A DNA stretch of 64,000 nt from Zunongwangia profunda SM-A87. GTDB lineage: Bacteria; Bacteroidota; Bacteroidia; Flavobacteriales; Flavobacteriaceae. The stretch is taken from positions 434,001-498,000 of the forward strand of contig NC_014041.1 in NCBI RefSeq assembly GCF_000023465.1, read 5' to 3'. Positions 2,531 through 35,316 of this stretch are shown here, piece after piece (position 1 is the first letter of the stretch; each line of letters opens with the position of its first letter). Made by a program: the position numbers and the translations under genes. The notes beneath the pieces are model-generated. The model worked only from the letters and a program-made list of their open reading frames with translations, was not told the origin of the DNA and ran no database searches.

Positions 2531-2538
2531 TCTTGATT

Positions 2539-17488: not shown

Positions 17489-17518
17489 CTCGAAAGCTTT
17501 TTCCGAAGTTCTTAATTT
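17489..17518. repeat. Second copy of a 28-30 base intergenic repeat
   Basis: CTCGAAAGCTTTTTCC then GAAGTTCTTAATT matches 7787-7814 with one inserted T and one substitution. Both copies lie in long intergenic regions 50-180 bases upstream of a plus-strand gene (marC and tRNA-Leu). Confidence 0.6.
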
Positions 17519-17638
17519 GCTTTAAATGTAGAGAGATAATTTTCTTTAATGCTTAATGCGTTTAAATTTAGTAAGAAGAATATGTCAACTGAAATCTGAT
17601 TTTTGTAAAAAAAAAGCAGTTGATGTCAAATAATTTTT

Positions 17639-17646
17639 TAATTTTG
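17639..17646 (+). promoter_or_regulatory. -7 promoter element of tRNA-Leu
   Basis: TAATTTTG fits TAnnTTTG and lies 10 bases before the mature 5' end of the tRNA at 17657. Confidence 0.55.
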
Positions 17647-17656
17647 CCGTCCAATT

Positions 17657-17738
17657 GCCTTGGTGGCGGAATTGGTAGACGCGCTGGATTCAAAATCCAG
17701 TTCTTTCGAGAGTGTGGGTTCGATTCCCACCCAAGGTA
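17657..17738 (+). tRNA. tRNA-Leu (anticodon CAA)
   Basis: Acceptor stem GCCTTGG pairs with CCAAGGT (first pair G-U), the D arm contains TTGGTAGA, and the anticodon loop is TTCAAAA, giving CAA (reads UUG). A class-II long variable arm forms TCT-TTCG-AGA, and the T arm is GTGGG-TTCGATT-CCCAC. The discriminator is A; CCA is not encoded. It is the integration target of the adjacent island: its last 51 bases are repeated at 22272-22322. Confidence 0.97.
17688..17738 (+). repeat. Proximal attachment repeat (attL) within tRNA-Leu
   Basis: The 3' 51 bases of tRNA-Leu, from the anticodon loop to the discriminator, match 22272-22322 at 47 of 51 positions. The four differences all lie in the variable arm. 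Confidence 0.85.
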
Positions 17739-17745
17739 CTAGAGA

Positions 17746-17780
17746 GCAAAACCCCTGCAATTACAGGGGTTTTGTTGTTT
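17746..17780 (+). terminator. Rho-independent terminator of tRNA-Leu
   Basis: Stem CAAAACCCCTG / CAGGGGTTTTG with loop CAATTA (17747-17774), followed by TTGTTTTT. It lies between the tRNA and the integrase fragment. Confidence 0.9.
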
Positions 17781-17801
17781 TTAGCCCTCAATATTACTTG
17801 T

Positions 17802-18146
17802 ATGAAAATTGAGGTGAATATCACAAAGGAGCCTACAAAGGAGCCTACAAAGGAGCCTATTTCGTTCGAAATCGTCGATATGAGTAAGAGGAAATATTCC
17901 GAAGTAAAAATTTACATTCCAAAAAAGAAGGGGCGAAAAAGTGTTGCTCCTGGCGATAAATGGTATGCATATTTTTATTGGCGAGATCCCGAAACCGGGA
18001 AGATGAATATTAAATGCAAGTACTATCGCGGCATAAATCAAAAGAAAACCGTTGCAGAGCGTGAAGAAGTAGCGAAGGCTTATCAGCGATCTTATCAAAT
18101 GTTACTGGAGCAAGAATGGTGTTATTACTCATTATGCTTTTCATGA
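17802..18146 (+). pseudogene. Tyrosine integrase, N-terminal fragment
   Basis: From the ATG at 17802 the frame encodes 114 residues before stopping. Residues such as KEPISFEIVDMSKRKYSEVKI and KWYAYFYWRDPETGKM followed by KYYRGINQKKTVAERE are typical of the N-terminal arm-binding and SAM-like region of Bacteroidota phage integrases. The catalytic domain with the R-H-R-Y residues is absent; after LLEQEW the frame runs into unrelated sequence. A 12-base unit ACAAAGGAGCCT is repeated three times near 17825-17860, encoding TKEP repeats. The frame can be extended upstream into the tRNA but the ATG is a better start. Confidence 0.8.
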
Positions 18147-18393
18147 GAAATCTAATGATTCAGTAAGCTTTGCTAAAAAAGTTGATAAAAGGTATGCCAT
18201 CCAATTATTAGAGAATCCTAATAATTCTGCATTTACCTGGATTTTGAATTATAATTTGTGTGGATGGAAAATTGGAGAAGAGGTAAAAGTAGTCAATGGT
18301 GATTCTGGTAAATATTTGAGATCGAATCCAGATAAAACAGAAACCAATAATTTAGAACACTTAATCGATTATGATTGGCTCAGGTATTTATAG
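18112..18393 (+). pseudogene. DUF3892 family protein, C-terminal fragment
   Basis: In a frame shifted from the integrase fragment, an open stretch of 93 codons reads KNGVITHYAFHEK...FAKKVDKRYAIQLLE, then NLCGWKIGEEVKVVNG, GKYLRSNPDKTETNNLEHLI and DYDWLRYL before the stop at 18391. These segments resemble DUF3892 proteins, small Bacteroidota proteins of unknown function. No start codon with an upstream leader is visible because the integrase fragment runs directly into it near 18112. The two fragments therefore appear joined by a deletion. Confidence 0.65.
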
Positions 18394-18523
18394 CAAGTTA
18401 ATGATCATAAAATAAATTGAATGAGAGTTTAATTATGTGGCTTTTGATATTACTTTTTTATTTTTTTTGATTAATCTTTTTATAGTCACGGGCGTTAGAA
18501 GTTTTTTGAATTTGAAAAAATAA

Positions 18524-18531
18524 TATCTTTG
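18524..18531 (+). promoter_or_regulatory. -7 promoter element of the island cargo operon
   Basis: TATCTTTG fits TAnnTTTG, with TTTG at 18505-18508 upstream (spacing 15, shorter than the usual 19). It lies 25 bases before the TTG start at 18557. Confidence 0.55.
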
Positions 18532-18556
18532 TTTATCAATCTTAAGTTATAACCTT

Positions 18557-19408
18557 TTGCAGAACAATAGAATAATAACTAAAATCGATATAGAAGGTAA
18601 CCTCAATACAGATTCAAGAGGGATTAAGAAGTTATTTCAATTTTACAATAAAGCCGTTGGCTATAAAAACCAGGTCATAGAGATCGACATGTATAAAATG
18701 GGATTCTTCGATGCGAATCTTTCCTGTGTTTTATATGCAATATTGTATAAGTTGAATAAGGATAATGGGCTGAAATTTGCACTTGATTTCGAGTATTTGC
18801 AAAAAGAGTACAGTGTGCTTTTTAGAAATGGTTTGTTTATTGAAGGAGAGGCCGTAGATGAGAGAGAGTCCACAATTCAACTTAAATCATTTCAGCCAAA
18901 TGCAGATAACGATGAAGAGTTTGTAAGTTATATTACTAATGATGTTTTGGGTCATAGAGGGATGCCAAATTTTTCAAGAAAAGTAAAATTAGGCATTGCT
19001 CAAGAGCTTACAGAAATATCAAGTAATATTATACAGCATTCGCGGACAAATGATCCATTTTTTGTTTGTGGACAATATTTTCCTAAGAAGAATTTACTTA
19101 ATTTTTCGATAGTAGATATTGGAGTAGGGTTTTTACCTGCAATTAGAGAAAAGGAGTCCAAGATAACAGATCATGGTTCTGCAATTATTTGGGCTTTGGA
19201 AAGTGGAAATACCACAAAAAAAGATGTGCCTGGTGGTCTTGGTTTACATAATTTGCTAAAATACTGTGAAGCTAATAATAGCTATATGCAAATTGTAAGT
19301 GGTGATAAGTTTTGGAACTCTGAGTCTATGCCTGGTTTTACCATGTCTCTGGGATGTGAATTTGCCGGCTCTGTGATTAATTTGCTTTTCTCAGATAAAA
19401 TACGCTAA
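18557..19408 (+). CDS. STAS-like domain fused to GHKL ATPase
   Basis: This 283-residue protein starts with TTG; no ATG precedes MYKMGFFDAN at residue 45, and the promoter at 18524 supports the TTG. Residues 1-105 look STAS-like (VIEIDMYKMGFFDANLSCVL). Residues 140-270 form a histidine-kinase-type ATPase: N box ELTEISSNIIQHS (150-162), G1 DIGVGF (187-192) and G2 GGLGLHNL (226-233). There is no phosphoacceptor His domain or membrane span, so it resembles an anti-sigma-type switch kinase more than a sensor kinase. It is followed by a DUF4325 STAS-like protein and a PIN nuclease, which suggests a partner-switching module. Function is not established. Confidence 0.8.
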   Translation: MQNNRIITKIDIEGNLNTDSRGIKKLFQFYNKAVGYKNQVIEIDMYKMGFFDANLSCVLYAILYKLNKDNGLKFALDFEYLQKEYSVLFRNGLFIEGEAVDERESTIQLKSFQPNADNDEEFVSYITNDVLGHRGMPNFSRKVKLGIAQELTEISSNIIQHSRTNDPFFVCGQYFPKKNLLNFSIVDIGVGFLPAIREKESKITDHGSAIIWALESGNTTKKDVPGGLGLHNLLKYCEANNSYMQIVSGDKFWNSESMPGFTMSLGCEFAGSVINLLFSDKIR

Positions 19409-19413
19409 ATTTG
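19406..19413 (+). promoter_or_regulatory. -7 promoter element before the DUF4325 gene
   Basis: TAAATTTG overlaps the stop codon of the ATPase gene and lies 56 bases before the ATG at 19470. It could give the DUF4325-PIN pair expression independent of the ATPase. Confidence 0.5.
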
Positions 19414-19469
19414 CACGCCTTTTTGCATCGAATTTGTTTTTAAAAGGTTTTATATTTATATTTAAGACT

Positions 19470-19796
19470 ATGAAAATGGAATTAAAAAAAATTTTAGGAT
19501 CATCTTTGGCTACGAACCCTAAACAGGGTAAAAGCTTTTTTAGTAGTTTAAATGAGGCTGCTCAGGGTTCTAATGAAATAGAAATTTCATTTGAAGGTAT
19601 AGAGTTACTTTCTTCTGCCTTTTTAAACGAATCTATAGGTAAATTCGTTATGATGTTCCCTGATAAAGAGTCTAATGTAAAATTTATTTATCCTATCGAT
19701 CAGCCAATATTTGAGACAAAGGTAAACGATGTTTTAGATAACGTAAAGATGGGAGATAAATATGACGAATGGTTGGAAAATGCTCAAACTCATTAA
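19470..19796 (+). CDS. STAS-like DUF4325 protein
   Basis: This is a small soluble protein of about 108 residues. GIELLSSAFLNESIGKFVMM and VKFIYPIDQPIFETKVNDVL are features of DUF4325, which has a STAS-like fold. I chose the ATG at 19470 over an in-frame TTG at 19434 whose product would have an atypical hydrophobic leader; an ATG two codons later is also possible. DUF4325 proteins commonly occur next to GHKL ATPases, as here. The PIN gene begins directly after its stop codon. Confidence 0.82.
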   Translation: MKMELKKILGSSLATNPKQGKSFFSSLNEAAQGSNEIEISFEGIELLSSAFLNESIGKFVMMFPDKESNVKFIYPIDQPIFETKVNDVLDNVKMGDKYDEWLENAQTH

Positions 19797-20390
19797 ATGA
19801 GTGATTATAGTATAGCCAGGCTTACAGATTATGATCTTACGGATCCTCCGAAAAAAAAATTTCTACTTGATGCAAATATTTGGATTAACGTAATTAGATC
19901 CAGCAATAAGAATAGAAAGAAAGCTAATTTATACAGAGAATTCTTTTTTGATCTTGTGGACTGCAAGGGGGCTAATATAATTTTACCCGCCTTAGTGGTT
20001 TCTGAAGTAATGAATAGATTATTAAGAGAAGTTTATTTAAAGAAATTTATTGAGAGAATTGGTGCAAAAGAACCATTAGCTAGTAGATTCTATAAAGAGC
20101 AATTTCGACCTTCTAAAGAGTATCGTTCTGGTTGTATGCTAATCGCTGATGAATTTAAGACGTACTTAGAGAGTGTAGAGCTTAAAAATGATGAGTTTGG
20201 TAAAAATATAAAATATAAGCATGTTCTTTCTAAATTTGATTTTGGCTTAGATTTCAACGATAGTTTTCTTTTTTACTTAGCAAAAAAGAATAATTATATA
20301 ATCGTAACAGATGATGGTGATTTTTTCGTTAAAGGAGTCGAAGTACTTACTTTAAATCAAGAGCTTTTGGAAAAAAGCTCTAAAATGTAA
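19797..20390 (+). CDS. PIN-domain protein (predicted RNase)
   Basis: This 197-residue protein has the acidic metal-binding residues of PIN nucleases: D25 in FLLDANIW, E70 in VVSEVMNRLL, D155 in DFNDSFLFYLA and the TDDGDFF cluster (171-177). PIN domains cleave RNA and are often toxins or defence effectors. No adjacent VapB-like antitoxin is seen; instead it directly follows the DUF4325 gene without spacing, so control by the STAS/GHKL pair is a reasonable hypothesis. At 197 residues it is longer than VapC toxins (about 130). Confidence 0.85.
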   Translation: MSDYSIARLTDYDLTDPPKKKFLLDANIWINVIRSSNKNRKKANLYREFFFDLVDCKGANIILPALVVSEVMNRLLREVYLKKFIERIGAKEPLASRFYKEQFRPSKEYRSGCMLIADEFKTYLESVELKNDEFGKNIKYKHVLSKFDFGLDFNDSFLFYLAKKNNYIIVTDDGDFFVKGVEVLTLNQELLEKSSKM

Positions 20391-20408
20391 TCTTGATAAT
20401 ATTTAAAA

Positions 20409-21008
20409 ATGAAGGATATAGATATTAGATTAGAGTTACATTCTAATTACCTTTCCAGCTTTTATAAGCATGATCCTGATTCAGTTATAATTGATGAACT
20501 AGGTATTTGTCAAGGATCTTCTAAAATAGATATTGCTGTTGTGAATGGTCACTTGTGGGGATGGGAGATCAAAAGTGAAAAAGATAATTTAAAGCGGTTA
20601 CCTTTACAAATCCAATATTATAATAAGGTTTTCGATTATGTTACTATAGTAGTTGGGAGAAATCACTTGGAGGAAGTGAAAGAAATGGTTCCTGAGTTTT
20701 GGGGTATTATGGAGGCTAAGAATCAGAAGGGAAATAGCTTGTCCATAAAGAGTGTTAGGCACTGCAAGTTAAATCCAAAGATTGAAGCAATATCGTTGGC
20801 TCAACTATTATGGAAAAATGAGACCTTAGAGATCCTAGAAAGATTAGGGAAAGATAGGGGATACAAAAGTAAACCGAGACGTGCATTATGGCAAAGGTTA
20901 ACTGAGGTTCTTTCCCTTGAAGAATTAAACTCTGAGGTTAGATCTTATCTTAAGAATCGAAAGGGATGGAGGACAACTGATCAACAACTAGTTCTAAGTG
21001 GTGGTTAG
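20409..21008 (+). CDS. sce7726 family protein (PD-(D/E)xK-like)
   Basis: This 199-residue protein contains SSKIDIAVVNGHLWGWEIKS and EKDNLKRL, then QYYNKVFDYVTIVVG. This arrangement (D41, E53-x-K55 and a following helix) fits a restriction-endonuclease-like fold and is the hallmark of the sce7726 family. Such proteins are predicted nucleases of unknown role, often found with Beta-family proteins in mobile or defence islands. It follows the PIN gene by 18 bases. Its last 59 bases overlap the convergent Beta-family gene. Confidence 0.8.
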   Translation: MKDIDIRLELHSNYLSSFYKHDPDSVIIDELGICQGSSKIDIAVVNGHLWGWEIKSEKDNLKRLPLQIQYYNKVFDYVTIVVGRNHLEEVKEMVPEFWGIMEAKNQKGNSLSIKSVRHCKLNPKIEAISLAQLLWKNETLEILERLGKDRGYKSKPRRALWQRLTEVLSLEELNSEVRSYLKNRKGWRTTDQQLVLSGG

Positions 21009-22026
21009 TGCCAATTTGTCGCCAGGTCGTAGCATTACCAGTACCTCCTATTTGACGAGATTTTTCTAATATTTCATTATCTCCCCAGCTGAAGTCTTCT
21101 CCATAAAATTCTCCGGAATGATTAACTAGTTGATCGCATAGACCGTAGAATTGATCATATCCAAATCTCTTAGCATCTCTTCCTTTTAAAATTAACCAAT
21201 CATTAGCTATGGTGTATCTAAGGTTTACACTCATTCTTATCGTTCTAGGATCCATTTCAAACAATTCTGGATTAGCAATGGCATAGTCTCCAAATTCTGG
21301 TTTACGTTTTATCTTTGATGCAATTATATTCTTCCAGATTTTAAATTCAGATCTAGGTATTTTTTCCATAGAATCTCCACTTATCCCGGAAAGATTTTCG
21401 GGAAATGCTGTTAGAGAAAGTATAATTTTATTATAATCATTCAGAAACGGAAGCGAATTAACCATTAACTTTGAAAATTGACTTAGCATAGATTCTTGTT
21501 CGTTACGGAGGAATCCAAAATCTAATACGATATCAATTTGATTTAGATTTATTTCCAAAACTTCGATTATTCTTTCTATTTCTACTTGTAAATCAAAATC
21601 CTCAAAGTCATCTTGTGTAAGTCTTACGCAAATTCTTTTAGAATTATTTTGAATTTCATGTTTTAATTCGTTTAAATAATCATTGTCAAATTTTAGCCTG
21701 ATAACCGGTATTCCAAATTCTCTTTTCTCTCTCAAGTTTTCTAAAAGAGAGAGTAAAATGTATTTATTTCTTATTTTAATTTCATCTAACAATTCAACAT
21801 CAATATAACATGGGAATTGCCTTCTTCCTGTACCAGATATGCCGTTAATTATAGTCTGTAGGTGTTTCTCAATCGTTTTCGAAGGTTTCTCGTTGACATA
21901 ATCATAAGTTATTGGTGGGATTTCGAAAAGTGGAGTGAGATTCTCTCTTGTTTCAATCTTAAGCTTTTTTAAGGCTTTAAATTCTCCAGATTTTGCTTTC
22001 AAAATTGGTGTGTAGTGACTATTCAT
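20950..22026 (-). CDS. Beta family protein
   Basis: This 358-residue protein begins YTPILKAKSGEFKALKKL and contains NLTPLFEIPP, CYIDVELLD, IDIVLDFG and ISGDSMEKIPRSEFKIWKNI, features of the Beta protein family (named from phage Beta-type proteins). The family probably folds as a TIM-like barrel and has no known activity; it often occurs beside sce7726 proteins. Here the two genes face each other with overlapping 3' ends, which makes their co-inheritance likely. It is the last gene of the island before attR. Confidence 0.75.
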   Translation of the reverse strand: MNSHYTPILKAKSGEFKALKKLKIETRENLTPLFEIPPITYDYVNEKPSKTIEKHLQTIINGISGTGRRQFPCYIDVELLDEIKIRNKYILLSLLENLREKREFGIPVIRLKFDNDYLNELKHEIQNNSKRICVRLTQDDFEDFDLQVEIERIIEVLEINLNQIDIVLDFGFLRNEQESMLSQFSKLMVNSLPFLNDYNKIILSLTAFPENLSGISGDSMEKIPRSEFKIWKNIIASKIKRKPEFGDYAIANPELFEMDPRTIRMSVNLRYTIANDWLILKGRDAKRFGYDQFYGLCDQLVNHSGEFYGEDFSWGDNEILEKSRQIGGTGNATTWRQIGTNHHLELVVDQLSSIPFDS

Positions 22027-22271
22027 AATTAAGTTTTTAAAAGTTAAAATTTAAATTTAGATAATTTTAACAAATTAAGTTAGGGGAAATTTCCCCTTTA
22101 TAGAATAGCTTTAGAGGTTTATATTGCGACGCTAAAAGAAATTATGAAGGAAAGTTTTTTTGATTTTTTGCAAGCCTATAGCGGAGCCTATAAAGATGAT
22201 TTTAGTGTGAAAGGTAAAAAAAAATAATCTGAAAATTAAAGGGTTAGGTTTTAGTATAGGGTAGGAATAAA

Positions 22272-22322
22272 ATTCAAAATCCAGTTTCTTCGGAAGTGTG
22301 GGTTCGATTCCCACCCAAGGTA
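22272..22322 (+). repeat. Distal attachment repeat (attR): partial tRNA-Leu copy
   Basis: ATTCAAAATCCAG followed by the variable arm and the complete T arm and acceptor 3' half of tRNA-Leu. Against 17688-17738 it differs at four bases, all in the variable arm; they form two compensated pair changes, so the stem becomes TTC-TTCG-GAA. There is no 5' half, so it is not a functional tRNA. Confidence 0.85.
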
Positions 22323-22328
22323 CAAGGG

Positions 22329-22357
22329 AAAGCTGAGATAAATGTCTCAGCTTTTTT
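22329..22357 (+). terminator. Rho-independent terminator beyond attR
   Basis: Stem AAAGCTGAGA / TCTCAGCTTT with loop TAAATG, followed by TTTT. It is probably the original terminator of the host tRNA-Leu gene, displaced when the island inserted. Confidence 0.85.
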
Positions 22358-22653
22358 ATTTTCAGGTATAACATAGGTACAACATTTCCTTATATTTTAT
22401 AAAATTATATTTTTTGATTTAAAAAGGTATGATTTGATGCTGAGCAAAGATTAATAGAAACTAGTAATTATCTGTAAGGCTATTGTAGAGGGGCGGTATC
22501 CGCCACATGCCATAAACTTTCTTTTACTAATGATGAATTACTAGCCAAGCTCATCTACCTGTCTACATGAAAAATTGAGAAGGAATGGAATGCTATATGA
22601 TAAAATTGTACTCTTTTCCACAATTTATGGTCAATATCGTTAGTTATAAATCT
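22358..22653. other. Intergenic region, nothing recognised
   Basis: About 300 bases between the island and the candidate immunity gene. No coding sequence or clear promoter is seen, apart from the palindrome that follows. Confidence 0.4.
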
Positions 22654-22683
22654 AATTCCTCTGGGGCTAGCCCCAGAGGAATT
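22654..22683. terminator. Perfect 30-base palindrome, probable terminator
   Basis: Arms AATTCCTCTGGGGCT and AGCCCCAGAGGAATT are perfectly complementary with no spacer. It lies nine bases after the stop codon of the minus-strand gene at 22693, so a transcription terminator for the toxin-immunity unit is likely, although no T run follows on that strand. Confidence 0.6.
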
Positions 22684-22692
22684 GAACAAAGT

Positions 22693-23337
22693 TTATTTTA
22701 CAGATCCATTGCCTCTTTTTTTTATTTTACTAATAGCTTTATTGATATCCCGATGTACATGAGTAGCATCATAGTGGCGGTTCAACTTATTTTCTAAAAA
22801 TGGAATATCCTCTAATTCTCCAATTTTACCCAATGCTTCTGGAGTTACTCTATAATTATGATCAAAACCTTCTCTCAAAATTTCTCTAGCTTGATCTTTT
22901 GGAAACATTTTTATTATTGCTAGCGGAAGAATTCCTATTTCGGAGTAGCTATAGGTTTTGGATAAATATATAGATTTAACCCAATCGTTAATATTCAAAG
23001 GTGGGTTTTTAACAATCGCTGAACAAATTCGCCAACGATCCGCTGTATCAGCTTCGTTAAATATTGGAATTATAATGCTACCATCATATTTAATATCAGT
23101 CTTAGCAATCAATAATAGACCACCTGTTTTATATTCTATTTTAGGTAGCCATTTTTTTATAATTTCAATATATGTTTCTAAGTCATAATTTCCATTTTTT
23201 AAAACTTTTATGTAATCATTATTATTCCCATATTTCTTAATATCAGGATAGCCTGCTCGACTTAATTCCTCATACATTGCCTTAAAATTTTTAAATGTCG
23301 AGGTTGATTCATTTTTTTCGCTCATATTCATATTCAA
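22693..23337 (-). CDS. Candidate immunity protein of the Rhs toxin
   Basis: This 214-residue cytoplasmic protein has no family I can name. Its C-terminal part (YRVTPEALGKIGELEDIPFL, then HVHRDINKAISKIKKR) is like a HEAT-type helical repeat. It begins five bases after the toxin fragment, which is the standard position of an immunity gene in Rhs/polymorphic toxin loci. The alternating ATG codons at the start (MNMNMSEK) leave the exact start open. Confidence 0.6.
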   Translation of the reverse strand: MNMNMSEKNESTSTFKNFKAMYEELSRAGYPDIKKYGNNNDYIKVLKNGNYDLETYIEIIKKWLPKIEYKTGGLLLIAKTDIKYDGSIIIPIFNEADTADRWRICSAIVKNPPLNINDWVKSIYLSKTYSYSEIGILPLAIIKMFPKDQAREILREGFDHNYRVTPEALGKIGELEDIPFLENKLNRHYDATHVHRDINKAISKIKKRGNGSVK

Positions 23338-23342
23338 TAAGT

Positions 23343-23651
23343 TTACCTAGTGTATCTAACGATTTTCAATAAAGAAGAACTATTAATTGCTTCTTGCAGT
23401 GGCTTAGATATATTTACGCCATTCGGAACATATAAATTAAATTTAATTTGATGTTGGTTTGCATACGTAATAAAATCTTGTAATTGTTTTGTATAGCTAA
23501 CAGTTCGGTTTAGAGCATAATGTTTTACCTCTCCAATTTGTTGCACAACATCAAACTCATCAACTATCATTTCATCTGGGATTCGGTAATTTGCTGTTTT
23601 ATTTAGTGATTCAATATGTTCAGTATTTTGTTTAATATTATTAAGTTTCAA
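23343..23651 (-). CDS. Rhs C-terminal toxin domain (restriction-endonuclease fold, Tox-REase-7-like)
   Basis: The last open part of the Rhs reading frame after the second stop codon. IPDEMIVDEFDVV, GEVKHYALNRTVSYTKQLQD and FNLYVPNG match the REase-7 type of polymorphic toxin tails. D31/D34, E41-x-K43 and Q57 make a PD-(D/E)xK-like active site, so the domain would cut nucleic acid. It could be made alone only if the TTG at 23651 is used; more likely it is a silent remnant protected by the downstream immunity gene. Confidence 0.6.
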   Translation of the reverse strand: MKLNNIKQNTEHIESLNKTANYRIPDEMIVDEFDVVQQIGEVKHYALNRTVSYTKQLQDFITYANQHQIKFNLYVPNGVNISKPLQEAINSSSLLKIVRYTR

Positions 23652-24628
23652 GCCTTCTTGACCTTTATCATAAGGTTTTAAAGATGGTACAGGAGCTATT
23701 TGAGGTCTTCCTAATACATCTCCATTCTAAAAATTACGACCGTTCAGAGCAGCTATTCCTCCATTCACTATTCCCCCAGTAACACCACCGATTGCTATGC
23801 CCGTAATATACTGCTTTGGAGTCATTAATGGATCACCAAAATATAAGTGATTTCCTAAATTTTGGACTGGAGAAGCAAAAGCCGTACCAGCAAGGCCTCC
23901 AGCTAAAAATCCTCCCACACTCCTCCTGCAGCACCTCCTGCCATTGTAAAAGCACCTCCACCAGTTGTCGCTCCAATAGCTCCTGCTGCAGTACCTATAC
24001 CAAATGCTACAAAACCATCTTTCCAATTATGAATTTTCCCTTGAACGGCTTTCACAGCCAGATTAACTAATCCACCAACGACTGCTCCGATTACTATATG
24101 CCAGAATTCACCATTTACATCTATATAGATTAGAGGATTATTAAGTACATAGGAATATCGGTTAAAATTTAGGGGATTGGATGGATCCTGCACATAATTA
24201 TCGGGACTTAAGAACCGGTGGAGCATGGCATCATATAAACGCCCGTTCATATGAATGATCCCTACCCACATTAAGTGCTCGTGTCCGGTATACCCCCGGT
24301 CCTATATGTTAAAACTGGTAAGGTTGTTGTTATTGCCATCAGTAAGTTTTACAATTTTTCCCCAGGCATCAAAATGTCGCTTTTTCTTAAAATTACCATT
24401 GCTATCGGTGATCGATAAGATACTTCCCAGATAATCCCTGTGCAGGTAAAAATAATTGGAGACCGTACTGCTTCCTTTTTCTTCATGGAATATTAAAGGG
24501 GCGGAATAGGCATCACCACCAATATAGGTCACAAAGGTGGTTTTGTTCGATTGGGAATCAAATTTAACCTCCATTTTACCATTGGCCGAATAATGCTTTT
24601 GATAGCGCCTTTGGTTTTTATTACTCTA
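23343..24628 (-). pseudogene. Rhs/YD-repeat protein, truncated and with several stops
   Basis: Joining the frames gives YQKHYSANGKMEVKFDS, YFYLHRDYLGSILSITDSNG, RGYTGHEHL, MNGRLYDAMLHRFLSPDNYV and NPLNFNRYSYVLNNPL, the RHS repeat core. A glycine-rich segment and the toxin domain follow. Lesions: an amber codon at 24302-24304 (between SFNI and DRGYTGHEH), a frameshift near 23918, and a second amber at 23727-23729 after GRNF. The 5' end is cut off near 24628, just before the IS3 fragment. Complete Rhs proteins have thousands of residues and are surface or secretion-delivered toxins; this copy is dead as a whole. Confidence 0.85.
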
Positions 24629-24705
24629 TGTCCCTCCTGGAGTTACTACTTTTATTCGGACACAAAATTTAAGACCGTTTTTTACTAAACAAATATCTTA
24701 GAACC

Positions 24706-25035
24706 ATGAAAAAACCATATTACAATCCGGAATTAAAGGAGCAAGCAGTTCGTTTAAGTTACCAGCGCGAGAATATAAAAGAATTAGCAGATGAACTAGG
24801 CATAGAAGTCCAAAGGATCTACAAATGGCGCAAGGCAGCTAAAACAGCTACATTGCCTAAGCCTGAAAAACCAATAACCGATCATACTTTAGCGCTTGAA
24901 AGAATTCGCAATGCTCTTAAAGAAAAGGAACTTGAACTTGAAATATTAAAAAAGGCCGTGCACATCTTCTCCAAGAGTGATGGGAAATCTATGGATTTAT
25001 ATCCGATAGAGAGGCTGTGCAGGTTTTTAAAATAA
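24706..25035 (+). CDS. IS3-family transposase OrfA
   Basis: 109 residues: YYNPELKEQAVRLSYQ with the helix-turn-helix ELADELGIEVQRIYKWRK, then a leucine-zipper region KEKELELEILKKAVHIFSK. This is the DNA-binding OrfA of an IS3-type element. The ATG is at 24706 and the frame overlaps OrfB by 19 bases, the usual arrangement for frameshift production of the OrfAB transposase. Confidence 0.88.
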   Translation: MKKPYYNPELKEQAVRLSYQRENIKELADELGIEVQRIYKWRKAAKTATLPKPEKPITDHTLALERIRNALKEKELELEILKKAVHIFSKSDGKSMDLYPIERLCRFLK

Positions 25036-25265
25036 GTAGGAGTAGTTTTTATAGGTGGTACACAGCTGGCCCTTCAAAGCGAGCATTGGAACATAGCCTT
25101 ACAGATTTAATAAAAAAGGAACTTGACCTGAGTAAACAGCGTTATGGCGCTACACGAATAGCAGAAAAACTTAAACGTGAAGGTTACTGTATATCCAGAT
25201 GTAGAGTGACTAAAATTATGAGAGCGAACCATTGGGTAAGCAAACACAAATGGAAGTTTAATTAA
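25017..25265 (+). pseudogene. IS3-family transposase OrfB, N-terminal fragment
   Basis: The fragment reads VFKISRSSFYRWYTAGPSKR, then KELDLSKQRYGATRIAEKLK and VTKIMRANHWVSKHKWKFN, the N-terminal HTH_21 region of an IS3 OrfB. It stops after about 82 residues; the DDE catalytic core (about 200 more residues) is missing. The element is therefore a dead remnant. Confidence 0.85.
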
Positions 25266-25377
25266 GGCTATCACAGATTCCAAACTCCAAAAGAAAGTGC
25301 AAGTTCTAACCAACACTGCTGAAAAATTCAATTTAAGTGAAAGATCTATTTATTCGATCATTAGAAAAATGAAATAA
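25266..25377 (+). pseudogene. Unidentified gene tail fused after the IS fragment
   Basis: In another frame, AITDSKLQKKVQVLTNTAEK and FNLSERSIYSIIRKMK precede a stop at 25375-25377. It looks like the C-terminal helix-turn-helix of an unknown small DNA-binding protein cut by the IS deletion. Confidence 0.35.
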
Positions 25378-25403
25378 AAAAGACGCCGATTAAAGCGTCT
25401 TTC
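25378..25403. terminator. Bidirectional terminator
   Basis: Stem AAAGACGC / GCGTCTTT with loop CGATTAAA (25379-25402). It lies between the plus-strand remnant and the minus-strand hicB and can serve both. Confidence 0.75.
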
Positions 25404-25426
25404 AAATGAAGTCCTGTTTTAAGGGG

Positions 25427-25840
25427 TTAAAGCGAAACTGATATTAATTCTTGTCCTAATTCGTGAATAGCGTTTTCTATAATCTTTGCTCTCTCTTCTG
25501 AAGCATTAGCTTTACCAGAAGCATATTGACGCATCAAAGATTCATTTATTCCTGCCTTTTTGGCTATGGATGATATTTTTAATTCAGGTAATAACTTAAA
25601 TAATGAAGGGATGTTCATTACATATTCTACACGTTCTATCGATTTTACTTCATCGATCCAATCTTCATCTAAATCTTCAGCTATCTCTAAATAATCATTA
25701 AATGCTGAAGTAAAACTTTCTTTTAACTCTTCTAAAGAATTTCCGTAAGCAGTTACTCCTCCAGGGAGATTTTGGGTACTACCCCAATAAGTTCCGTCGT
25801 CTGCCTTCTCGACGAAAACTCGAATTACTTCTTGTGCCAT
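25427..25840 (-). CDS. hicB: HicB-type antitoxin
   Basis: 137 residues from the ATG at 25840. The N-terminal HicB fold is VIRVFVEKADDGTYWGSTQN with LPGGVTAYGNSLEELKES; the C-terminal helix-turn-helix is ISSIAKKAGINESLMRQYAS. It would bind HicA and repress the operon. A longer upstream extension of the same frame overlaps hicA and is not expected to be translated. Confidence 0.88.
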   Translation of the reverse strand: MAQEVIRVFVEKADDGTYWGSTQNLPGGVTAYGNSLEELKESFTSAFNDYLEIAEDLDEDWIDEVKSIERVEYVMNIPSLFKLLPELKISSIAKKAGINESLMRQYASGKANASEERAKIIENAIHELGQELISVSL

Positions 25841-25899
25841 TGTTTTGTTTTTGTACGATCTATCTGCTATTCTTTGATAGAAAAGACGGGGGAGGGTGG

Positions 25900-26082
25900 T
25901 TAGTCCAACCCCGCCTGTTTTAAAATCGACTTTACCGTTCCTATAGGTACATCTTTTTTTGGATGTGGTATTGTAACGATCCCCCTTTTTGAAGGATGCT
26001 TGAAATGATGGTGACTTCCTTTTGTTCGAACTTTGTACCAACCATCGCTTTCAACCAGCCTTATCAAAGAACTAGACTTCAT
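25900..26082 (-). CDS. hicA: HicA-type mRNA interferase toxin
   Basis: 60 residues from the ATG at 26082 (MKSSSLIRLVESDGWYKVR). The conserved GSHHHFKHP motif with the catalytic His and VTIPHPKKDVPIGTVKSILK are diagnostic of HicA, a double-stranded-RNA-binding-fold RNase that cleaves mRNA. It is first in the hicA-hicB operon; hicB starts 59 bases after its stop codon. Confidence 0.9.
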   Translation of the reverse strand: MKSSSLIRLVESDGWYKVRTKGSHHHFKHPSKRGIVTIPHPKKDVPIGTVKSILKQAGLD

Positions 26083-26086
26083 AATA

Positions 26087-26094
26087 CAAAGATA
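26087..26094 (-). promoter_or_regulatory. -7 promoter element of hicAB
   Basis: On the minus strand TATCTTTG, with ATTG at 26114-26117 exactly 19 bases upstream, which fits the Bacteroidota -33/-7 layout (TTTG-N19-TAnnTTTG) with one mismatch. The transcript would start at the hicA ATG, without a leader. Confidence 0.65.
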
Positions 26095-26110
26095 TAACAT
26101 TTTAGTTATG

Positions 26111-26124
26111 TAACAATATTGTTA
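26111..26124. promoter_or_regulatory. Probable HicB operator
   Basis: The perfect 14-base palindrome TAACAATATTGTTA covers the -33 element of the hicAB promoter, as expected for autorepression by the HicB helix-turn-helix. Confidence 0.55.
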
Positions 26125-26784
26125 TATATTTTTTATACTGTGATATAAATTAATATAAAAAAAGCCACCGCAAAACCGATGGCTCTCAAAAGGTAAAAAA
26201 GTTTAATACATCAAAATTAGAGTGTACTCAACGATAAGGATTTATCTATCGTATTTCCATTTATTACACGAAAAAAGCCACTTGTATGTAATAGCTTTTC
26301 CGATTTAACCCAATAAATTTAAAATGTTTTAACCCTTAGTAAGGATACATGAATTAACTGTATAAGGGCTGATTTTATAAACTGACTTCGACAATTTAAA
26401 CCGTAGCTATAGGTGTTTACTGTCAGCTTCCGGAGCTCTCGGTTTTTCTTACTTGCTCTCCATTCAGCGAATTTTGCTGCTGTTTCTAACCGTAGCAACA
26501 ATAAATGTATTTCGCATCCAACGCAAAAAAACTGCTCGTAGTCAATGGCTTTTATAATCGATAAGAGTTTATATCCTTACTATATAGTTAAACAAAAAAC
26601 TCATTGTTCTTTGCGGCTCTTAAAACATGAGTATTTCATAATTATCTTTTTTAGGTAATAGGTTTCCTAATGTACTGGTGCTATATAAATAGAGCCATGC
26701 ACCCCATAATGTCTACTTAAATGCTTTTCTGCTTATCTATTTGAGTTCATTTTCTCATTCAGACTGTAATGAGTTCTTTTTTAG
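26125..26784. other. Intergenic region with two minus-strand terminator-like hairpins
   Basis: No convincing gene is seen in about 660 bases. A stem AGCCA / TGGCT (26163-26184) with an A run at 26155-26162, and a second at about 26274-26300 (AAAAGC / GCTTTT), would both terminate minus-strand transcripts. A 60-codon minus-strand frame at 26319-26501 has no recognisable product. The region may hold gene remnants or a small minus-strand RNA. Confidence 0.35.
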
Positions 26785-26796
26785 TAAAACGTTTTA
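26785..26796. promoter_or_regulatory. LacI-type operator upstream of the regulator
   Basis: TAAAACGTTTTA (within GTAAAACGTTTTAT), the same palindromic core with central CG as the two operators before susC. It lies 69 bases before the lacI-type gene, which implies autoregulation. Confidence 0.75.
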
Positions 26797-26865
26797 TATT
26801 GCATTTATCTTTCGTAAATTTACTTACTTTTCGAAGCTGGGAATCCTATTACTTATCATCAAAAA

Positions 26866-27909
26866 ATGAAAAAGAAGCAAAGAGTATCCATTAAAGATAT
26901 TTCAAAAGAGTTGGGGATCTCAATTACTACAATCTCTTTTATTATTAACAAAAAAGCCAAGAACCGAATTAGTGATGAAGTAATAAAAAAGGTTGAAGAT
27001 TACATTGAGAAAGTTGGCTATGAGCCAAATACTTCTGCTCAGACCCTCCGAACGGGGAAAACCAAAACTATAGTATTTATGGCAGAGGATATTTCTGACC
27101 CCTTTTTTTCAGCTGTAGCCAAGGAAATGGAAGAAATTGCCTATAAAAATGGATATAAGATCATTTACTGTAGTACCGAAAACAATAAGGATAGAGCCGC
27201 TGAACTCATTTCTTTATTTCAAAATAGACAGGTCGATGCTTTTATAATTACTCCTCCCGAAAATTTCGAAAAAGAAATACAGGAATTAATTACTCAAAAA
27301 AATGAGGTTATCATGCTTTTTGACCGCCGTTATACTTCTACAGAGCATAATTATGTAATACTTGATAATTTTAATGGAGCTAAAATGGCAGTTAACAAGT
27401 TAATTTCATCAGGATGCAAAAATATTGCTTACGTAGGATTGAAATCAGATTTCAGCTGTATGAGTGAGCGGCTTGAAGGGTACAAAGACGCCATCAAAGA
27501 TCACCAATCCCAGCCAATTTCATTGCTTCTTCCATTTAAAGATGTTAAAACAAAAGCAGGTCGTATCCAATTTGAAAAATTCATCAATAAACATACAGCT
27601 GTCGATGGTATCCTGTTTGCCACCAATGGTTTAGCTATTAATGGACTAAAAGGATTAAAAGAATTACATAAGAATATACCTGATGAGTTAGCTGTAATCA
27701 CATTTGACGACAGAGATTTATTTGAACTACACACCCCTTCCATTAGTGTTTTATCACAACCTGTACCTGCCATGGCAACCGAGTTAATCAAGGGTACACT
27801 CGAACTTCTAAGGGCGAAAAACGATAAAAACGAAATTTTTCAAAAAATTCTTCCCGGAAATTTAATCACCAGAGATTCCTGTAAATTAACTATTTACGAT
27901 AAAAAATAG
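26866..27909 (+). CDS. LacI-family transcriptional regulator
   Basis: 347 residues. The N-terminal HTH reads VSIKDISKELGISITTISFI with the hinge helix motif GYEPNTSAQTLRTGKTKTI. A periplasmic-binding-like effector domain follows (VFMAEDISDPFFSAVAKEME, GCKNIAYVG and ITFDDRDLFELHTPSISV). It sits divergent-free, directly upstream of the SusC/D operon, and the palindrome GTAAAACGTTTTAC found in both promoters is its probable binding site. The effector is likely the imported sugar of this locus. Confidence 0.93.
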   Translation: MKKKQRVSIKDISKELGISITTISFIINKKAKNRISDEVIKKVEDYIEKVGYEPNTSAQTLRTGKTKTIVFMAEDISDPFFSAVAKEMEEIAYKNGYKIIYCSTENNKDRAAELISLFQNRQVDAFIITPPENFEKEIQELITQKNEVIMLFDRRYTSTEHNYVILDNFNGAKMAVNKLISSGCKNIAYVGLKSDFSCMSERLEGYKDAIKDHQSQPISLLLPFKDVKTKAGRIQFEKFINKHTAVDGILFATNGLAINGLKGLKELHKNIPDELAVITFDDRDLFELHTPSISVLSQPVPAMATELIKGTLELLRAKNDKNEIFQKILPGNLITRDSCKLTIYDKK

Positions 27910-27959
27910 CTTTTTGTAGGGTGTGAAATTTTAAAATTATCCTTACAAATTAATAATAT

Positions 27960-27973
27960 GTAAAACGTTTTAC
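27960..27973. promoter_or_regulatory. LacI-type operator 1 of the sus operon
   Basis: Perfect palindrome GTAAAACGTTTTAC. It directly abuts the -7 element TAAATTTG at 27974-27981, so a bound repressor would block the polymerase. Confidence 0.8.
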
Positions 27974-27981
27974 TAAATTTG
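27974..27981 (+). promoter_or_regulatory. -7 promoter element of the sus operon
   Basis: TAAATTTG, matching TAnnTTTG, between the two operators. The leader to the susC ATG at 28232 would be about 245 bases, leaving room for other control. Confidence 0.6.
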
Positions 27982-28015
27982 ATTATATTAGTACTGTATT
28001 TTTTAAATTCATCAT

Positions 28016-28029
28016 GTAAAACGTTTTAC
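28016..28029. promoter_or_regulatory. LacI-type operator 2 of the sus operon
   Basis: A second perfect GTAAAACGTTTTAC, 56 bases centre to centre from operator 1 and downstream of the predicted transcription start, as in looping or roadblock repression. Confidence 0.8.
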
Positions 28030-28231
28030 TATATCGTTGTAGATGCCAAAATGATAAAATTACAATTGGAAACTTATGAGATGGTCATTTCTATGGGAGC
28101 ATTTTTATAGGCCTAACATGAGTACTATTAGGTTTTAATTCCTCAGAAGGAATTGAATCAAAGGAAATAGATTCCGAGAGCGAATTCGGATAATAATCGC
28201 AGTTCTTATATTAATCTTTGAATACTTAATT

Positions 28232-31200
28232 ATGATAACACAAAAAAGCGTTTCCTGCCTCTTATTCGTATGGGCGATCTGTGCGGGAAGTATAGCTTAC
28301 TCACAAACAATTACAGGTACTGTAAAAGATGCTCGTGGTCCATTGCCTGGGGTTTCTATCAGTGAAAAAGGTACTGAAAATGGTACCGTTTCAGACTTTG
28401 ACGGGAAATACGAAATCGATGTTTCTAGTCAAGATGTAACTCTTGTATTCTCTTATTTAGGCTATGTGACTAGGGAGATACCGTGGAATGGTGAAAATAA
28501 CGTAGAAGTGGTACTGCAGGAAAGTACAGAGCAGCTCGATGAACTGGTTATAGTAGGTTATCAATCCCAAAAAGAGTCAACCATCACTGGGGCCGTATCA
28601 TCTGTTAATGTCAAACAATTAGAATCCCGCAGAGTTCCGGGCGTAACTCAGGCATTACAGGGGCAGGTTGCGGGAGTAAATATTACTCAAAGTACGGGTG
28701 CCCCGGGCGAAGAAGTGGAAGTCCGAATACGGGGTAACGGAACGATAGGCAATAATAATCCCTTATATATTATTGACGGTGTTCCCAGTAGAGAAATCTC
28801 TTTCCTAAATCCTTCCGATATAAAGTCTATGTCGGTCTTAAAAGATGCGGCAGCTGCCTCCATTTACGGTTCAAGGGCTGCTGGTGGAGTTATTGTTATA
28901 GAAACCAAAAGTGGTTCTGATCGCAGCGGTTTTCAAATAGATTATTTCGGAGGCTTGCAAAAAGTCACCAATTTGCCTAATATGCTTAATGCGGATCAAT
29001 ACCTAAATACCGTGACCACTGCCTGGAATAATGCGGGCTATTCCGGAACCAATCCCTATCTCGCCGATGCTGGTAGATCCGATTTCGCTGACGTAGACTA
29101 TTTAGATGAACTATTTGAATTGGGAAAAACAAATAGTGTACAACTCTCCACATCCGGAGGTAATGAAAAAACAAATTTCTTCTTAAGTGCTGGATATTAC
29201 GGGCAAGACGGAATTGTAGTCTACGACAATGATAAATTTAACCGTCTAAACCTGCGTAGCAATATAAATTCCAATGTCACCAATCGCATTAAAGTGGGGG
29301 CGAATGTTCAAATATCATATGAACAGCAGGATAAAATTTCTTCGAAAGGGGATGCACCAGGAATCATACGTCATGCTTTTCTGCGCCCTCCCATTATACC
29401 GGTTTATAAAAATCCTTCAGATCCTACATATTCAGAAGAAGACCCTTTTACAGACTTGCCTTTTTATGTTGATCCTGATAATTTTGAAAGCAATAAATAT
29501 GAATATTCTCAAAACCCTATAGCGCTTGCCTATTTTACCGATAACACGACTAGAACTTTTAAAACGTTTGGAAATTTATTCGCTGAATATCAGATCCTGT
29601 CAGATAACTCCTTGAAATTCAAAACAAATTTCGGAGCAGATATAAACTTTGGTCATCAAAAGGCTTTTAATCCTAATTATGGAGATGACGATGGTCAGGG
29701 GGCAGAAATTGATAGCGGTCTGGGACGCCAAAATCGTCCTACCAATCTATCTGAATCCAGGTATGAAGACATGACCTTTACATGGAATAATAGCTTTATG
29801 TACAATAAAGAAATTGGAGACCATGATATAAATGCACTGGCTGGAATTGAATTTATAAAAAATAATTCTTCCGGAATAAATGCTTCAAGACAACGATTTG
29901 ATTATACCGAACCTAATTTCAGATATCTCGACTTTGGTGGGACCGATCGGGACATATGGAATGGGGGGCTGGCCGAAGAATGGGCGTTATTCTCCTATTT
30001 TGGTTCTGCTACCTATTCCTACCAGGATAAATATTTAATCACTGCTAATCTTCGAGCCGATGCTTCTTCGAGGTTTTCAAAAGATAATCGCTGGGGATAC
30101 TTCCCTTCGATTTCAGCGGGTTGGACTATTTCGAAGGAAAACTTTATGGATAATTTAGATTGGTTGAACCAACTGAAGTTGCGAGCCAGTTGGGGGCAGC
30201 TTGGAAATCAGGAGATACCCAATTACGCCTATTTAACCTTATACCGAAGAGATGCCGATCGTTACCTGATTAGTCGTTACGGGAATCCTGATTTAAAGTG
30301 GGAAACTACAGCACAAGTGAACATAGGGATCGATTTTGGATTGTATAGTAACAAACTCTCTGGAAGTATTGATTATTTCGAGAAAACTACTTCGGATATA
30401 CTCCTTCCAATTTCTCTCCCCAAGTTTGTAGGTGATGTTTCGGCCACTTATCTTAATTCAGGCGAGGTGCAGAATTCCGGGCTGGAATTTGGATTATCTT
30501 ACAGGAATTATGAGAATCCTTTAAAATTTCAAATTAGTGGGAATTTGTCCACACTAAAGAATGTGGTGAATTCCTTGCACCCTAACTTACCTTATCTTAC
30601 AGGGAATGTCACCAGAACCCAGGAGGGCCATCCGCTAAATGCATATTATGGTTTTGTTCAAGAGGGGATTTACCAAAATCAGACGGAAGTTTCTGAACAT
30701 CTATATGGAACTAATAATCCGCCACAACAACCGGGGGATATTAAATTTAAAGATTTAGATGGAAACGGAGTAATAAATGACAATGATCGTGATTTTATAG
30801 GAAATCCAAATCCAAAATTATCGTATGGTCTGAATGTTTCCATGAATTACATGAGTTTTGATTTTAATTTTCTTTTTCAGGGGGTTGAGGGTGTTGACCG
30901 CTATAATGATTTAAAGAAAATTATCGATTATGATACCAGGCCATTCAATTATACGGATCGTGTACTGGGCGCCTGGGATGGGGAAGGTTCAACCAATACA
31001 ATACCCAGAGTAAGTTTTACCGATAATGGAAGCAGTAGAGTCTCTGATATCTTTGTGGAGGATGCTTCCTATCTAAGACTTAAGAATGTAGAGCTGGGAT
31101 ATACTTTTGATGTGGAAAAAGTGGGGAATTTCAGAATATATACCTCCGGTCAGAACTTACTTACTTTTACCGATTATTCCGGTTTAGATCCTGAATCTAC

Positions 31201-31270
31201 CGATTTAATCGATTTCGGAACATATCCGCAATCATTAACCATATTGTTTGGAGTTCATGCAAACTTCTAA
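28232..31270 (+). CDS. SusC/RagA-type TonB-dependent outer-membrane transporter
   Basis: This 1012-residue protein has a signal peptide (cleavage near AYSQT, about residue 25), an N-terminal carboxypeptidase-D-like regulatory domain (ITGTVKDARGPLPGVSISE), the linker ELVIVGYQSQKESTITGAV and a plug domain with RIRGNGTIGNNNPLYIIDGV. The barrel ends with LTILFGVHANF, with Phe at the end. It forms the outer-membrane gate of a glycan importer with the downstream SusD protein. Two LacI operators precede it. The substrate is probably a mannose-containing oligosaccharide, inferred from the GH130-like neighbour. Confidence 0.95.
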   Translation: MITQKSVSCLLFVWAICAGSIAYSQTITGTVKDARGPLPGVSISEKGTENGTVSDFDGKYEIDVSSQDVTLVFSYLGYVTREIPWNGENNVEVVLQESTEQLDELVIVGYQSQKESTITGAVSSVNVKQLESRRVPGVTQALQGQVAGVNITQSTGAPGEEVEVRIRGNGTIGNNNPLYIIDGVPSREISFLNPSDIKSMSVLKDAAAASIYGSRAAGGVIVIETKSGSDRSGFQIDYFGGLQKVTNLPNMLNADQYLNTVTTAWNNAGYSGTNPYLADAGRSDFADVDYLDELFELGKTNSVQLSTSGGNEKTNFFLSAGYYGQDGIVVYDNDKFNRLNLRSNINSNVTNRIKVGANVQISYEQQDKISSKGDAPGIIRHAFLRPPIIPVYKNPSDPTYSEEDPFTDLPFYVDPDNFESNKYEYSQNPIALAYFTDNTTRTFKTFGNLFAEYQILSDNSLKFKTNFGADINFGHQKAFNPNYGDDDGQGAEIDSGLGRQNRPTNLSESRYEDMTFTWNNSFMYNKEIGDHDINALAGIEFIKNNSSGINASRQRFDYTEPNFRYLDFGGTDRDIWNGGLAEEWALFSYFGSATYSYQDKYLITANLRADASSRFSKDNRWGYFPSISAGWTISKENFMDNLDWLNQLKLRASWGQLGNQEIPNYAYLTLYRRDADRYLISRYGNPDLKWETTAQVNIGIDFGLYSNKLSGSIDYFEKTTSDILLPISLPKFVGDVSATYLNSGEVQNSGLEFGLSYRNYENPLKFQISGNLSTLKNVVNSLHPNLPYLTGNVTRTQEGHPLNAYYGFVQEGIYQNQTEVSEHLYGTNNPPQQPGDIKFKDLDGNGVINDNDRDFIGNPNPKLSYGLNVSMNYMSFDFNFLFQGVEGVDRYNDLKKIIDYDTRPFNYTDRVLGAWDGEGSTNTIPRVSFTDNGSSRVSDIFVEDASYLRLKNVELGYTFDVEKVGNFRIYTSGQNLLTFTDYSGLDPESTDLIDFGTYPQSLTILFGVHANF

Positions 31271-31289
31271 ATGTCTAAAGATTTCAATT

Positions 31290-32780
31290 ATGAAAAAATC
31301 AATATTAAAATTTCTTACAGTGGTATGTTTTATAGCGTTTTCAGGCTGTGATTCCTACCTGGATGAAGATCCTATCGGTTTAATTACCAAGGATCGAATA
31401 GACACCGAGCCAACCGCTGCTTCTATTATCTCCTCGGTTAACTCAACTTATCAATTACTCTCCAGAACTCTCAATGTTATTGGACAATGGAATTGGGATC
31501 AGGGGACCATTACCAGAAATGATTTCTTACTTCAGGATATCGCTTCGGGCGATATGCAAAAGAAATGGAATCCTGATGGTGACCAGGCATGGATGGATGA
31601 AGTTGCGGCATTTAATTTTACTTCTATGAATCCCGGTTTCAATGGAATCTGGAGTTATGATTATGAAGGGATCTCACGCGCAAATCAGGCAATAACTACG
31701 CTTAATAACTCAGAGGTCATGTCTTCCGTTGATATGGATGGAGCTACAAAAGATCGCTTGTTGGGAGAAGTATATTTCTTGAGAGCCTTCTATTATTTTG
31801 ACCTGGTCAACAATTTTGGAGGTGTGCCTTTGCTTACAGAGCCTTTACAGGATTTTTCAGATGCTTACCAGGTAGCCAAACGCAGTACGCAACAGGAGAT
31901 TTGGGCTCAAATAACTGCAGATCTTCAGGAATCGGTTTCCTTACTGGCCGAACAAAAATATTCCAGCAATGCTGAACCGTGGAGGGTTTCTATCGGAGCG
32001 GCAATTGCCATGCAGGCAAAGGTGAATTTGTTTCAGCAAAATTGGAATGAAGTGATTAATAAAGTGAATCAATTGCAGGGGTATAACTTTTATTCTCTGG
32101 ATAATAATTATTTTGATCCTTTCGATGTAAACAAAGAGTACCAGGAAAATGAAGTAATTTTCTCATATGATCATGTTTCAGGACTCACCCCCTCAAAAGG
32201 GAATGGTCTTTCAGCATTAATGGGCTGGGGGTTTTTGGCACCAACCCAGAACTTTTTAGATGCATTTGAAGAAAATGATCCAAGACTGGAATATACGGTT
32301 CAGGTAGCCCAGCAACAACAACATAAACTACTGGGGACTACCGATGGAAGATATAAGGGCAATGAAGATTCTCCGGGAAATAAAGTATATATCCGTTATG
32401 CTGACGTGCTGCTGTGGAAAGCCGAAGCATTCATTGAGAACGGAGAGATAGAGAAAGGTTTGGCAATTATCGATCAGATTCGTACCCGAGCACGTAATAC
32501 TCCAAAGATTGATGGCAGCGCTACCCCTTCCAATGCATTGCCTAATTATGCCGGCACAGGGGTTTCCAAGGCCGAAGCTCTACAGATTTTGCGTCATGAA
32601 AGACGGGTGGAGTTGGGCTTTGAATCACAAAGATTTAATGATCTAAAACGTTGGGGTATTGCGGAGGATGTATTGACCAACCTGGGAAAAAATTACCAAA
32701 GTTATAACAGCCTTTATCCTATTCCACAAGGAGAAATAGATCGTTCTGGAGGACAGATAGAACAAAATCCCGGATACTAA
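31290..32780 (+). CDS. SusD/RagB-family glycan-binding lipoprotein
   Basis: 496 residues. The lipobox is FIAFSGC at about residues 13-19, so the Cys is lipidated. A TPR-like helical fold follows (SRANQAITTLNNSE, EVYFLRAFYYFDLVNNFGGV) and the C-terminal half has YIRYADVLLWKAEAFIENGE and RHERRVELGFESQRFNDLKR, standard SusD segments. It caps the SusC transporter on the cell surface. The ATG at 31290 is used; a longer frame from 31248 would overlap susC. It lies 20 bases after susC. Confidence 0.95.
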   Translation: MKKSILKFLTVVCFIAFSGCDSYLDEDPIGLITKDRIDTEPTAASIISSVNSTYQLLSRTLNVIGQWNWDQGTITRNDFLLQDIASGDMQKKWNPDGDQAWMDEVAAFNFTSMNPGFNGIWSYDYEGISRANQAITTLNNSEVMSSVDMDGATKDRLLGEVYFLRAFYYFDLVNNFGGVPLLTEPLQDFSDAYQVAKRSTQQEIWAQITADLQESVSLLAEQKYSSNAEPWRVSIGAAIAMQAKVNLFQQNWNEVINKVNQLQGYNFYSLDNNYFDPFDVNKEYQENEVIFSYDHVSGLTPSKGNGLSALMGWGFLAPTQNFLDAFEENDPRLEYTVQVAQQQQHKLLGTTDGRYKGNEDSPGNKVYIRYADVLLWKAEAFIENGEIEKGLAIIDQIRTRARNTPKIDGSATPSNALPNYAGTGVSKAEALQILRHERRVELGFESQRFNDLKRWGIAEDVLTNLGKNYQSYNSLYPIPQGEIDRSGGQIEQNPGY

Positions 32781-32801
32781 TCAATAAAAAATGTGTAATC
32801 A

Positions 32802-33956: not shown

Positions 33957-33969
33957 TAATCTTTCTATT

Positions 33970-35280: not shown

Positions 35281-35316
35281 AAAAGAGAAATTACCACGAT
35301 GTTTTATAAGAACTAT

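Follow-up and report, generated by a model that had tools for sequence, protein, structure and literature searches.

We analyzed a 64,000-nucleotide stretch of the genome of Zunongwangia profunda SM-A87 (contig NC_014041.1, positions 434,001 to 498,000; hereafter the window) and found that three adjacent genes at 18557-20390 are a vapKSC system, encoding the STAS-GHKL kinase VapK, the DUF4325/STAS antitoxin VapS and a VapC-like PIN nuclease. We consider it highly likely that these genes form a toxin-antitoxin or abortive-infection operon and that the next two, for an sce7726 family protein and a beta family protein, are a second, independent module, associated with phages and plasmids, carried on the same insert at a tRNA-Leu gene. 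The original prediction had read the trio and the sce7726 gene as one undescribed defense or conflict system. The trio cannot be called undescribed, because vapKSC was named in June 2026 (Chambers et al., EMBO J 2026, PMC13373217). In the parts of that report drawn on here, the survey counts 289 instances and the crystal structure of VapS2-VapC2 is given as PDB 9z7o; in Escherichia, VapC is toxic and is neutralized by VapS, and the operon confers about 2-log protection against one phage, which is abolished in VapC D28A, VapS S48A and VapK F54A.

The window VapS and VapC are detectable homologs of the crystallized pair. A family profile matches the 9z7o VapS at E 1.7e-25 and the 9z7o VapC at E 1e-13, and the window sequences alone match them at E 0.011 and E 1.2e-4, respectively. 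Ser49 of the window VapS aligns with residue 66 of the 9z7o chain, which is S48 if that chain has an 18-residue tag, and this column is Ser or Thr in 79 of 79 homologs (45 S, 34 T). In VapC, D25 aligns with residue 28 of its 9z7o counterpart (D28, catalytic in Escherichia) and is kept in all 79 homologs, alongside E70 (78), D152 (77), D155 (78), D173 (77) and D175 (77), in agreement with the earlier description of a PIN protein with intact acidic residues. The window system shares with the published one its gene order and domains, the conserved Ser/Thr, the acidic residues of the catalytic site and intact kinase boxes. It differs from the Escherichia system in that its proteins are low in identity and that it adjoins an sce7726/beta pair.

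Genes 1-3 occur together more often than chance allows, and gene 4 as a member of the set does not. We matched vapK in 24 of 296 Bacteroidota genomes, the source genome included; a scan of 84,980 species (one genome each) turned up 96 relatives, and we retained the best 80 loci; a viral scan gave 2. After merging duplicates and removing GHKL open reading frames (ORFs) below 180 amino acids (aa), 93 distinct loci remained from L027-L128, and VapS-type and PIN profiles were built iteratively over all ORFs of L047-L128, beyond the mere neighbors. At 79 of the 93 loci the kinase gene is followed, on its own strand, by a VapS-type gene and then a PIN gene, with median gaps of 11 and -11 nt when ORFs are taken from their first start, which bears out for the trio the conserved gene order that the original prediction had proposed to search for. 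Related trios were found in Chlorobiota, several Proteobacteria, Elusimicrobiota, an archaeal metagenome-assembled genome (MAG) and a Deinococcus plasmid, whose independent annotation lists an ATP-binding, a STAS-like and a PIN protein. The window VapK matched one record in the plasmid collection and two in the phage collection.

The other 14 loci comprise six at a contig edge (at most 598 bp left) and eight with contig remaining in which PIN, STAS or both were undetected (L034, L036, L041, L043, L044, L045, L046 and L048). Pfam, run on ten proteins from L034, L036, L043, L045 and L046 and on L048, returned DUF4325/STAS proteins and no effector domain; the third gene of L034 resembles the window PIN protein (phmmer E 8e-4) and has no Pfam family. 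At L043, Pfam places a metallopeptidase-like protein upstream. The viral contig L048 has, at 1087-3632, a VapK-like gene, a gene for a 408-aa protein that matches nothing in Pfam and is possibly another effector, and then a DUF4325 gene, with no PIN detected. Streptococcus phage Javan172 (L165:2869-4147) carries a VapK-like ATPase gene followed by a 114-aa gene near an integrase, with no PIN annotated.

An AlphaFold2 model of the window VapK (predicted local distance difference test score 93.1) opens directly with a STAS-like domain, after which comes the GHKL domain, and structure comparison places its ATPase part nearest to SpoIIAB. The earlier description of gene 1 as STAS-like plus GHKL holds for the GHKL part and, tentatively and at the level of the fold, for the N-terminus: VIA-align ranks STAS domains first, and Foldseek, hhalign and Pfam are weak or negative. 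STAS domains are also carried by SLC26 proteins. A sequence relationship between this N-terminus and VapS was considered and rejected (hhalign probability 0.3%). All 79 homologs retain the N-box residues E153, N157 and H161, and 74 of them have F or W in the F50 column, which by our column mapping would correspond to the single-stranded DNA aromatic F54 of Escherichia. The sole PADLOC match of VapK, to DISARM DrmA, covers about 105 of 1750 model positions (E 8e-9); because the match is only partial and the model is that of a 283-aa kinase, we do not regard VapK as a DrmA-type helicase. A partial match of this kind also came from three related VapKs, and we take it as shared GHKL sequence.

CapK/CapS, as described in the covered parts of PMC13373217, likewise pairs a STAS-GHKL kinase with a STAS substrate, but CapK has an N-terminal helix-turn-helix and CapS a C-terminal winged helix-turn-helix and represses transcription, whereas the window trio has neither DNA-binding domain and places a PIN nuclease third. 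We rejected membership in that system: the VapK model starts at the STAS-like domain, and VapS is DUF4325 over most of its middle with no further Pfam domain. Unlike the SpoIIAB/SpoIIAA and RsbW/RsbV partner switches, the trio includes no sigma factor, and the bound target would be a PIN toxin.

We envision that, in the resting state, VapS would bind the VapC PIN nuclease and block it. Infection or DNA damage would activate VapK, by analogy through single-stranded DNA held between its STAS and GHKL domains, a step that in the Escherichia system rests on a predicted complex and one mutant (PMC13373217, in the parts covered). Active VapK would then phosphorylate VapS at Ser49, and phosphorylated VapS would release VapC, which could cut RNA and halt growth. 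Each component of this scheme finds support in sequence and predicted fold; for the window copy we infer the kinase activity, the single-stranded DNA trigger and the RNA target. A SpoIIAB/SpoIIAA-type switch that frees a PIN RNase upon infection, as the original prediction had it, fits the trio, as reported for vapKSC and with the diagnostic residues present; its extension to sce7726 does not hold.

The sce7726 gene instead pairs with a convergent beta gene, which was overlooked when the set was taken to end at 21008 and which overlaps the sce7726 gene by 59 bp. Among the 296 Bacteroidota genomes, sce7726 matches 14, in 16 places, and we inspected 13 of the 15 that lie outside the window. PF14350 beta is found in four of these genomes, the window's included, and is adjacent to and convergent with sce7726 in all four (the others are G148, G105 and G101); in the 4 kb covered at each of these three other loci there is no trio gene, and the remaining sce7726 loci inspected show no PF14350 neighbor. 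Plasmid records matching sce7726 number 48, and beta is seen within the same match in 9 of the 15 listed. In four of four records, namely E. coli, Rhodococcus and Sinorhizobium plasmids and phage Rac-SA53, the two genes overlap convergently by 32-47 bp; the Rac-SA53 annotations are beta and 'CII phage-like protein', and no STAS-like or PIN gene is annotated around the pair in any of the four, the plasmid gene tables being incomplete. A search of viral contigs found no relative of sce7726.

Both proteins of the pair resemble components of known phage defenses. According to the parts of these sources considered here, gop-beta-cII of P4 gives protection from lambda and P1 phages (PMC9122126), and PD-lambda-2C is needed for PD-lambda-2 defense (PMC9519451). 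By PADLOC, sce7726 resembles cII, and the window beta protein resembles beta and PD-lambda-2C; the window genes differ from those systems in being convergent and overlapping. No gop-like gene was recognized among the seven window proteins scanned with PADLOC, a library in which a gop model is unconfirmed. Because of the PADLOC matches and the defense roles of these two systems, sce7726 and beta are probably a defense-related module of their own, and the pattern D41, E53-x-K55, legible in the sce7726 protein as the original prediction had noted, hints at a possible nuclease role.

Both modules lie within a 4.6-kb insert bounded by attachment (att)-like direct repeats, both of them copies of the 3' end of tRNA-Leu. 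We compared the tRNA stretches of five genomes of the same genus (G296-G300). In G298 and G300 the site is empty, the tRNA joining the sequence to the right of the second repeat (86-bp matches, 94% and 91%), and because the tRNA there continues straight into the right-hand flank, we read 17740-22323 as an insertion. G297 and G299 are also without the insert within the stretch compared. At the same tRNA, Z. mangrovi (G296) has a roughly 34-kb element whose integrase is uninterrupted; it also includes endolysin-like and anti-restriction-type genes, and its far end holds the cargo seen in the window. The window insert may be a shortened derivative of such a larger element, or the events may have run in the reverse order. 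A short ORF at 17712-18146 is likely a remnant of that integrase: it shares N-terminal residues with the Z. mangrovi protein, and 17601-18112 matches beside the Z. mangrovi tRNA, and the remnant has no PHROG match. About 13 kb adjoining the insert (22358-35510) finds no match at this tRNA in Z. mangrovi, G298 or G300, and the site therefore looks like an insertion hotspot.

Elsewhere, some vapKSC trios sit within larger defense operons. By raw count, 14 of the 79 trios, drawn from the best 80 of 96 relatives, are flanked on the same strand by core genes of an Hma or BREX operon: nine between HmaA and HmaB (L073, L084, L096, L097, L114, L119, L120, L122 and L126) and five between PglX and BrxH or a second PglX (L088, L090, L104, L112 and L124), with 0-3566 bp separating them from the nearer core genes. 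Nesting was called by comparison with PADLOC-checked representatives, and 59 of the 79 trios are flanked by 3 kb or more on each side. Two further trios sit directly behind a type III restriction gene, at 3 and 49 bp. In the VapK tree, the five BREX-nested copies fall with 14 others in one supported 19-row group and the Hma-nested copies (10, one with a single flank) fall outside it, so a few events may explain the nested copies. The main text of PMC13373217, so far as covered, does not mention nesting, which may be listed in its supplement; the nesting of vapKSC in Hma and BREX operons is possibly new. In its covered parts, PMC12839542 names PIN RNases as back-up effectors of BREX and related systems, and PIN genes within BREX-type operons are what the nested relatives of our trio show. 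The window copy, by contrast, is not in BREX, and STAS and GHKL partners are absent from the main text of that paper as covered.

Two other explanations have to be weighed. The layout of the window would suit a single four- or five-gene system, in which sce7726 (and beta), in this lineage, would give the vapKSC switch an extra effector or sensor: vapC and sce7726 run in the same direction in the window, Z. mangrovi and the MAG contig L050, with the sce7726 start 18 bp after the stop of vapC, and both modules share one insert. The wider neighborhoods make this very improbable. Among 82 loci, just two carry sce7726 at 5 kb or less from the kinase gene, and both, Z. mangrovi (92% identical) and L050, come from or near the window's genus; L069 has an sce7726 relative at about 6 kb. 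Beta is tail-to-tail with sce7726 in each of the four Bacteroidota genomes, out of 296, that have it, and the pair recurs on the three plasmids and the one beta-bearing phage inspected, with no STAS-like or PIN gene annotated around it. A single four-gene system was rejected on these neighborhoods: nearly all other vapKSC loci examined are without sce7726, and what had been taken for the fourth gene is not conserved with the other three. The contig L050, which matches the window at 99.98% identity over 5547 bp, comes from a MAG labeled Planctomycetota (CPC9) and is most likely misbinned.

The trio might also be a non-killing stress regulator that tunes RNA turnover by the PIN protein upon general DNA damage, with phage defense incidental. 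The covered parts of PMC13373217 lend this some room, calling the boundary between immune and stress pathways fuzzy and counting another immune gene at 10 kb or less for 103 of 289 vapKSC, which leaves the majority with no such neighbor. We nevertheless think it unlikely, given the toxicity of the Escherichia VapC and the phage protection that its operon gives, the trios nested within Hma or BREX operons and the location of the window copy on a mobile insert. Our reading of the trio as a toxin-antitoxin or abortive-infection operon can be extended, tentatively and with somewhat less than even confidence, to a portable, DNA-damage-triggered kill switch built into the operons of large DNA-modifying defense systems, where it would act as a back-up once the front line has been blocked or overrun and single-stranded DNA builds up. 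With vapKSC adjoining sce7726/beta, the Zunongwangia insert would be another such stacking.

The features of the locus are collected below. All four plus-strand ORFs that the original prediction listed, with their order and gaps, were reproduced (61, 0 and 18 bases), and its DUF4325, PIN and sce7726 assignments stand. The position 18524, from which the set had been drawn, marks only where gene 1's open frame begins, because the earliest usual start codon there is the TTG at 18557; vapS has an ATG start at 19470, and the ORF list begins it earlier, at TTG 19434. In Pfam, VapK and the sce7726 protein had no match above the cut-off.

Features of the vapKSC and sce7726/beta insert at tRNA-Leu (window coordinates)
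Feature	Position	Strand	Description
tRNA-Leu (CAA)	17657..17739	+	insertion site
Left att-like repeat	17688..17745	+	tRNA-Leu 3' end
Short ORF	17712..18146	+	likely N-terminal remnant of integrase uninterrupted (463 aa) in Z. mangrovi
vapK	18557..19408	+	283 aa; TTG start; STAS-like N-terminus and SpoIIAB-type GHKL kinase domain
vapS	19470..19796	+	108 aa; DUF4325/STAS antitoxin; Pfam PF14213 E 6e-12; likely phospho-acceptor Ser49
vapC	19797..20390	+	197 aa; PIN-domain nuclease toxin; Pfam PF01850 E 4e-8; acidic residues D25, E70, D152, D155, D173, D175
sce7726 family protein (P4 cII-like)	20409..21008	+	199 aa; NCBIfam NF033832 E 3e-55; PADLOC 'cll' E 1e-32
beta family protein	20950..22026	-	358 aa; PF14350 E 7e-69; PADLOC PD-Lambda-2_C E 5e-57, 'beta' E 9e-8
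Right att-like repeat	22272..22329	+	58 nt; 90% identical to left copy

Rfam over 17500-22500 returned the tRNA only. Promoter and terminator counts at the locus are close to chance; for the Bacteroidota-type promoter pattern, there were four occurrences versus 4.9 in shuffles, none of the four just before vapK. Beyond the insert, at 23343-23651, a small ORF with Tox-REase-7 (PF15649, E 9e-10) lies beside ORFs that by eye resemble RHS-type fragments.

Overall, membership of the window trio in the vapKSC family is well supported, and a four-gene undescribed system is not, which places a Bacteroidota locus in a very recently named system and sets sce7726/beta apart from the trio as a widespread convergent pair. 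That pair and the Hma/BREX nesting hold the remaining interest. If the nesting is functional, it would supply a defined control circuit for the PIN effectors described in BREX.

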